64,000 nt of DNA from Clostridia bacterium (lineage in GTDB: Bacteria > Bacillota > Clostridia > UBA1381). A model generated the notes under the pieces. It was not told the origin of the DNA. It saw nothing but the letters and a program-made list of their open reading frames with translations, and searched no databases. Location: NCBI GenBank assembly GCA_017443895.1, contig JAFSXU010000033.1:1-64000 (forward strand), read 5' to 3'. Numbering within the stretch: the first letter of the stretch is position 1; each line of letters opens with the position of its first letter. This document shows positions 34,783 through 36,071 of the stretch, piece after piece. The position numbers and the translations under genes were made by a program.

Positions 34783-34959
34783 ATGAAAAAGTACATAAAA
34801 CCAAGTATAGATATTTCATTGTTTAAAAATGAGGATATATTAACTGCTTCCACAATATCGGTAGGCGAGTGGAGTGAAAATTACGATAGCGGTAATGTTA
34901 TCCATGTTGATTATAATAATTTAAGCACTGTTCCGAACGGAACATTTTTCGGAAATTGA
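34783..34959 (+). CDS. 58-residue peptide with MKKYIKPSIDI leader-like start
   Basis: A small gene 14 bp after the surface protein, with a strong GGGGGGC ribosome site. The product begins MKKYIKPSIDISLFKNEDIL and continues TAS, then a polar tail rich in N, G, S and T ending TFFGN. The leader resembles short Clostridia peptides of the form MKKYxKPxIxIxxFxxxDIxTAS that I recall next to secreted proteins or as possible precursor peptides. There is no signal peptide, no cysteines, and no modification enzyme nearby. The function is unknown. The ribosome site and downstream hairpin support it as a real gene. Confidence 0.65.
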   Translation: MKKYIKPSIDISLFKNEDILTASTISVGEWSENYDSGNVIHVDYNNLSTVPNGTFFGN

Positions 34960-34975: not shown

Positions 34976-35012
34976 CGGTATACTCTCAGACACAGCTTTT
35001 GAGAGTATACCG
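34976..35012 (+). terminator. Strong hairpin closing the secreted-protein operon
   Basis: CGGTATACTCTCA (34976-34988) pairs with TGAGAGTATACCG (35000-35012), 13 bp with a 10-11-nt loop. The T-run after it is poor, so it may act as an mRNA 3'-end stabiliser as much as a terminator. Confidence 0.6.
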
Positions 35013-35170: not shown

Positions 35171-35356
35171 GCTTATCCGTTGTTTCAAGGCTATGTGTAT
35201 AGTGCAAAAGTTGGATACATAAATACAAGGGGTCTTGTTCTCTCTCTCCCCTGCATATTGCCGGCATTAAGCTTGTGCCAATACCAATAATATTGATATA
35301 CGATATTGTTAATGCCGACAATAGCATATACATATAGCTTTGCAACAGCGGATAAG
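35171..35356 (+). ncRNA. Candidate structured RNA leader before the uronate operon
   Basis: A ~29-bp outer stem pairs 35172-35200 with 35328-35356; three of its four imperfect positions become G:U pairs if the + strand is transcribed and A:C mismatches otherwise. Inside lie an AGGGG/CCCCT hairpin (about 35226-35251) and a stem ATTGCCGGCATTAA / TTAATGCCGACAAT near 35259 and 35310. The branched ~186-nt fold lies in a gap without a gene, 58 bp before the RraA-like start. No intrinsic terminator follows, so it could be a cis-acting 5' leader or a processed small RNA. The size also suits a 6S-like RNA. Family unassigned. Confidence 0.5.
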
Positions 35357-35414
35357 TTATAAAGTAGACTGATGTAATCTAATAAAAGTGAAGTAATTTA
35401 AGGGGGTGATTTTA

Positions 35415-36071
35415 ATGGACAAGGAAAAAGAACTTTTTGGGCTGATGAAAGAAAAATTGTATACACCTGTAGTTGGTGATATTTTAGACGAGATGGGGTA
35501 TACGCATCAGTTTCTTCCGCCGAATATAAGACCTATGCAAAGTGAGATGAAAATAGCAGGCAAGGCTATGACAGTGCTTATGATAGATGTTTTTGGCCCT
35601 CAGGAGATGCCGTTTGGGCGACTTTGTGAGTGCTTAGACCAAATACAGGAAAACGAGATATACATATGTACGGGCGGAACGAAACGCTGTGCCTATTGGG
35701 GTGAGCTTTTGACGGCAACGGCAAAGTCAAGGCACGGTGCAGGTGCGGTTGTTGACGGCTATCATAGGGATACACCGCAGGTGCTTGAACAAAACTGGCC
35801 TGTATTCAGTATGGGTGGATATGCACAGGACTCAAGCGTGAGAACACAGGTGATAAATTACCGATGTACCATAGAAATAGGTCAGGTTACCATAAATGAC
35901 GGCGACTATATTTTTGGAGATGTTGACGGAGTTGTAATTATTCCAAAAGAGATAGCCAAGGAGGTAATAGACCGTGCACTTTCAAAGGCGGGAAAGGAAA
36001 AGAGTTTAAGAAAGGCAGTAGAGGGCGGAATGCCTGTAACGGAAGCGTTTAAAATTTACGGAGTTTTATAA
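35415..36071 (+). CDS. RraA/HMG-aldolase superfamily protein
   Basis: A 218-residue cytoplasmic protein of the RraA-like (class II pyruvate aldolase, 4-hydroxy-4-methyl-2-oxoglutarate aldolase) superfamily. [20 protein letters not shown] (96-115) and RD at 118-119 are the family's substrate and metal site; [10 protein letters not shown] follows near 170. Family members cleave or decarboxylate 2-keto acids. Placed first in the unsaturated-uronate operon, it could act on a keto-deoxy sugar acid in place of the missing KDPG route; that is inference. ATG 35415 is chosen with AAGGGGGTG 8-15 bp upstream; GTG 35406 lies within that ribosome site. Confidence 0.8.

Follow-up and report, generated by a model that had tools for sequence, protein, structure and literature searches.

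A lineage-restricted family of small dispersed repeats with a conserved RNA fold in a Clostridia bacterium and a congener

The analysis of the window (the whole 64,000-nt stretch under study, positions 1 to 64,000 of contig JAFSXU010000033.1 from Clostridia bacterium assembly GCA_017443895.1) identified the element at 35171..35357, on the + strand, as one copy (copy W) of a family of structured repeats. Members of this family are dispersed, lie in sense orientation with the gene upstream of them, and have kept the pairing of their outer stem through compensatory changes. The interpretation that we favour, with confidence that stands at about even, is that the copies form a family of small, dispersed non-coding elements restricted to this lineage, transcribed in sense and putatively acting in cis on the processing or stability of the transcripts that contain them.

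A branched RNA fold at this position, ahead of a uronate operon, had been described in an earlier note on this DNA, and the folding results agree with that description. The + strand of 35171-35356 presents a minimum free energy of -70.4 kcal/mol versus -40.2 +/- 3.6 for dinucleotide shuffles (z -8.35; 0/200 shuffles folding equally well), and the - strand reaches -64.8 kcal/mol (z -6.56). The covariance model R1 places the element at 35171-35357, within one base of the coordinates first claimed, and scores it at 146.8 bits (E 2.8e-29 in its own genome), copy W being among the copies used to train the model. The outer stem pairs a 5' arm (35171..35203) with a 3' arm (35325..35357) through 29 Watson-Crick and 4 G:U positions, with 0 A:C and 1 other position, in line with the claim that differences in this stem are mostly G:U on the + strand. 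The nested hairpins reported earlier are also found in the minimum free energy fold. They comprise an AGGGG/CCCCT hairpin with a pyrimidine-rich loop (35228..35252), which contains the pyrimidine run of this copy (35238-35252), and an inner hairpin, P5 (35286..35310). Two further + strand helices, P3 (GCATA/TGTGC with one G:U, 35253-35257 with 35274-35278, identified by eye) and P4 (35256-35270 with 35309-35323, from inverted repeat I2), would cross each other.

As the earlier note had it, the operon begins directly after the element. The ATG of an RraA-like gene (35415..36071, + strand; PF03737, E 1.8e-33) lies 57 nt beyond the element end, and this gene is followed by an SDR gene, an RpiB-like gene and a GH88-like gene, the latter scoring slightly below the Pfam cut-off. 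The possible promoter at the element edge was not borne out, with 5 promoter-like sites detected versus 4.7 in shuffles and none of them at the 5' edge. The nearest upstream gene is an ORF of 58 aa (34783..34959, + strand) belonging to a small peptide family, and directly 3' of it a perfect 13-bp inverted repeat (CGGTATACTCTCA/TGAGAGTATACCG, 34976-35012) is found, which is mostly retained in the orthologous region of the congener RUG12844 and has no T-run downstream.

BLAST searches with the element against its own genome returned arm matches on other contigs, where the same architecture could be read. R1, built from six copies that are themselves among its matches, identified 11 copies with E below 1e-10 in this 2.72-Mb genome, on contigs C5 (the window), C29 (two), C72 (two), C77, C26, C36 (two, C36a and C36b), C41 and C57. 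The sequence is hence a repeat scattered in the genome, the outcome that the earlier note had itself set against its proposal. Copies are mostly 180-205 nt long (full range 118-212 nt), the shortest being that on C41 (118 nt), which has lost its interior, and the arm-only model R2 detected an additional 3' fragment on C14. The congener RUG12844 (G001, a metagenome-assembled genome of an uncultured Ruminococcus) harbors four copies, on contigs C173, C114 and C17 (two, one of them truncated at the edge of the contig). Apart from these two genomes, covariance searches returned no match in the remaining 68 of 70 genomes of the family, nor in 12 other genomes of the order. A pattern scan of 84,980 species genomes, using an exact pattern that catches only some copies, returned only RUG12844 (CACZPW010000173.1), and no match to the element was found in the viral contigs, plasmids and phages searched. 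Searches with Rfam 15 matched only a tRNA cut at the window edge, and no 6S RNA, in the window at gathering score; across five loci, with E allowed up to 5, they gave three chance matches, none of them on an element. The literature covered, largely titles and abstract openings, contained no recognised description of such a repeat in Ruminococcus or its relatives.

The copies share a well-defined anatomy. They start near G(C/T)TTATCCG, stop near CGGATAA(A/G)C, and have in common an outer stem of ~31 bp and a CU-rich hairpin loop. The arms are paired in all 13 copies that retain both, and a pyrimidine run of 13-23 nt within the stem is present in 14/14 copies. Of the 16 sense-strand pyrimidine runs of at least 13 nt in 12 contexts (153.6 kb), 14 lie inside elements. 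By eye, the run mostly forms the loop of a short hairpin, and the loop sequence is conserved while its stem varies (AGGGG/CCCCT in the window, GGGA/TCCC in C77). In copy C77 the inner helices TGCACA/TGTGCA and ATTGCCGACTTA/TAAGTCGGCAAT cross each other. Most copies have crossing inner helices, which could fold into a pseudoknot. In G1a, G1c, C36a and C41, as judged by eye, at least one of the two has decayed or been lost.

Support for the pairing came from an alignment (A8) of 13 copies. Copy G1b, which has lost its 3' arm, was excluded from this alignment and from the arm totals and permutations, and the copy cut by a contig end (G1d) and the C14 fragment entered no pair count. Overall, 88.8% of 668 cells in A8 are paired, and both sides change in 21 of 55 pairs; the helices corresponding to P3, P4 and P5 (helices 2, 3 and 4 of the count) have 83.1%, 85.4% and 72.7% of their cells paired, respectively. 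None of 500 shuffles attained any of five measures, in a control that related copies inflate, and pairing fell to 28-46% when partners were slid, a comparison in which the counted structure is favoured because it was drawn from copy C77. Each 5' arm fits its own 3' arm better (mean -42.8 kcal/mol) than permuted arms do (-35.5, sd 1.3; 0/20000). Across the arms of the 13 copies, 356 Watson-Crick, 48 G:U, 14 A:C and 17 other positions were counted, from an arm alignment in which G:T and A:C had been given equal score. On the gene-sense strand, the excess of G:U over A:C is significant against a rate of 0.5 (p 8.7e-6) and against a rate of 0.59 meant to allow for GC skew (p 0.0018), in tests whose positions are not independent among related copies. 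The arms are also more stable as sense than as antisense RNA in 11 of the 13 copies. The existence of these covarying homologues supports a conserved RNA fold. A covariance search had been put forward in the earlier note as a check on its proposal, and it does recover homologues, which lie beside unrelated genes and not by the uronate operon alone.

Comparison of the two species provided a separate view of conservation. The element precedes RraA at the same position in both genomes, and the RraA gene is 87.5% identical between them. The arms of copy W and its RUG12844 orthologue are identical at 60/66 positions (28/33 in the 5' arm and 32/33 in the 3' arm), with two outer pairs turned A:C in RUG12844. 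The interior is among the least conserved parts (84/116 aligned positions), and the right flank shows 29/38 identities. The arms are hence more conserved than interior and right flank together (113/154; p 0.0037), with p 0.079 against the short right flank alone. By eye, the tandem pair of C72 is apparently also present in RUG12844, on C17, where one copy lacks its 3' arm and runs into a gene's end. The RUG12844 sites corresponding to C36a and C26 are without the element, in gaps that align too poorly to define an insertion point and hence an exact empty site; no usable orthologous site was found for C36b. The presence of both shared and species-specific sites is what a slow mobile repeat would give, with old sites alongside ones that differ between the species.

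The genomic contexts of the copies are diverse, and their orientation is uniform. The upstream gene lies on the strand of the element in 12/12 loci where it is visible which, with ~8 independent events estimated after considering that some loci are duplicates or orthologues, has a probability of 0.004. GC skew is positive along the element strand in all 12 contexts examined, and replication-linked insertion or strand-biased mutation could therefore account in part for the uniform orientation and the surplus of G:U. Neighbouring genes include those for GH4 and GH3 proteins, a DHDPS-like protein, a polysaccharide deacetylase, small secreted proteins and, by eye, an apparently broken EamA-type transporter; two copies occupy convergent 3' sites. 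The copy on C77 (locus L047, 4045-4776) is sited where the EamA-type-looking gene breaks off, and by eye this gene is also frame-broken. Phage-like genes, by eye helicase-like and recombination-like, occur shortly beyond the C29 tandem pair (L046, 6183-10499).

The 58-aa ORF upstream of copy W has no match in Pfam or NCBIfam. It belongs to a family of ORFs of 53-62 aa sharing the pattern M.KY..P.(I/M)E(I/V)..F..E(D/N)I(I/L).(A/T)S followed by a variable C-terminal half, with members in the window (34783-34959) and at loci L046, L052, L053, L054 and L056, and with 29 matches in its own genome and 14 in RUG12844 at E up to 0.1. By sequence the family looks like a leader joined to variable core peptides, and several of its ORFs sit 3' of a gene for a small secreted protein. 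A general role of the element beside small peptide genes was considered and rejected, given that only 4 of the 29 family matches precede an element; at the peptide units without element (L083, L086 and L088) no empty site was found. A second shared motif, near TTTTGTGTAAACTCCAAAA, occurs 3' of several peptide genes (L079, L080, L082, L083, L084 and L088), whether or not the element is present there, and is, by its resemblance to one, a candidate insertion sequence end.

The same data can be read as those of a MITE-like DNA parasite, with the inverted ends, or the hairpin they form in single-stranded DNA, serving only as a substrate for a transposase or recombinase, and the RNA fold having no role. 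This is possible, but we regard it as rather unlikely. Like MITEs, the element is small, non-coding and bounded by terminal inverted repeats, and its dispersal, its fragments, the copy at a broken gene, the insertion sites differing between species and the agreement of the uniform orientation with the replication strand are all consistent with such an origin. The longest direct repeat flanking 13 copies averages 2.85 nt versus 2.65 at random places, providing no evidence of target-site duplication, and the ends read in the copies show no 5'-TA-3' termini. R2 identified no larger element with matching ends in its own genome, its 23 matches with E under 0.01 comprising 22 in the 11 copies and one in the C14 fragment, although a parent element could have been lost. 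A Y1 transposase linked to the repeats, as in REP-type elements mobilised by IS200/RAYT, was not found either: Y1 matches occur four times in this genome (C6, C68, C69 and C8), none of them on an element-bearing contig, and this transposase is also found in G003, a genome without the element. Further arguing against a pure DNA parasite are the large preponderance of G:U over A:C and the conserved pyrimidine loop, both on the sense strand, and the conservation of the arms between orthologues.

Pyrimidine-rich pairing loops are known from some Firmicute sRNAs, and it is because the CU-rich loop resembles them that a multicopy sRNA was retained as an alternative, which we nonetheless deem improbable. 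Such an RNA, proposed in the earlier note in the form of a processed sRNA, would either be freed from the transcripts that host it or have a promoter of its own; its loop would bind a protein or base-pair with purine-rich sequences, for instance Shine-Dalgarno sites. A closed stable fold, a loop kept while its hairpin stem varies and the dosage that several copies would supply fit this scheme; promoters not above chance at copy W, a copy (C36a) that begins 21 nt past a stop codon and the restriction to two species do not. Equally doubtful in our view is a more elaborate version, in which a mobile, sense-only RNA with a pseudoknotted core shows its CU-rich loop on the ~31-bp stem and each copy releases the same regulatory RNA, linking operons; if true, the released RNA would join unrelated carbohydrate operons in one network. 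Of the riboswitch of the earlier note, sensing a sugar acid and controlling the uronate operon, the conserved RNA fold is supported but the sensing role is not, as the copies lie in scattered, unrelated contexts. In spite of the leader position before the RraA-like gene in both species and the many carbohydrate-acting neighbours of other copies, we consider it highly unlikely: a conserved core before functionally related genes was not observed, the genes beside the copies are unrelated and some copies occupy convergent 3' sites, the interior that would form the pocket is variable and deleted in C41, and 68 of the 70 genomes of the family gave no match.

Under our preferred interpretation of a cis processing or stability element, copies would be transcribed in sense within the surrounding mRNA, and the RNA is predicted to fold into a rod of ~31 bp that carries a CU-rich loop and a possibly pseudoknotted inner core. 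The folded element may part the message of the upstream gene from the message that follows, which for copy W is that of the RraA operon, and spread of the family would have proceeded by duplication and a transposition-like route. A stem of this length would be a suitable RNase III substrate; cleavage by this enzyme has been proposed for NEMIS RNA in the account given in PMC2229807, from which the analogy is drawn.

The family has no Rfam match and falls among the small interspersed structured repeats already known. As described in PMC3049150, the pneumococcal BOX and RUP elements are likewise small and interspersed, have terminal inverted repeats that pair with each other in an RNA fold predicted to be stable, occur in few species, are slow to move and are in some cases transcribed. 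By that description they differ from the present family, with its 11 copies, no duplication and 12/12 sense loci, in numbering over 100 per genome, causing target duplications and lying at ~61% on the leading strand. Correia/NEMIS and other MITEs, as presented in PMC2229807, are also non-coding, about 100-200 bp long and bounded by terminal inverted repeats, and give long stem-loop transcripts. Most MITEs listed there show target duplications and end in 5'-TA-3'. Neither is found in the present family, which has ends near G(C/T)TTATCC..GGATAA(A/G)C, a longer outer stem (~31 bp) and a conserved core. The family also resembles, in the terms of PMC2267715, the stem-loop repeat families of a 40-genome survey, which are repeated intergenic sequences with a common predicted secondary structure. 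Judged by these descriptions, it differs from described repeats in its ends, lack of duplication, uniform orientation and conserved core.

At the RraA locus, recognition of the family averts a misreading, as this leader would likely pass for an orphan riboswitch of the uronate operon. More broadly, small interspersed repeats of bacteria are often regarded as passive parasites, and the combination of covariation, strand-biased wobble pairing, uniform orientation and stem conservation seen here makes the RNA activity of such a repeat testable.
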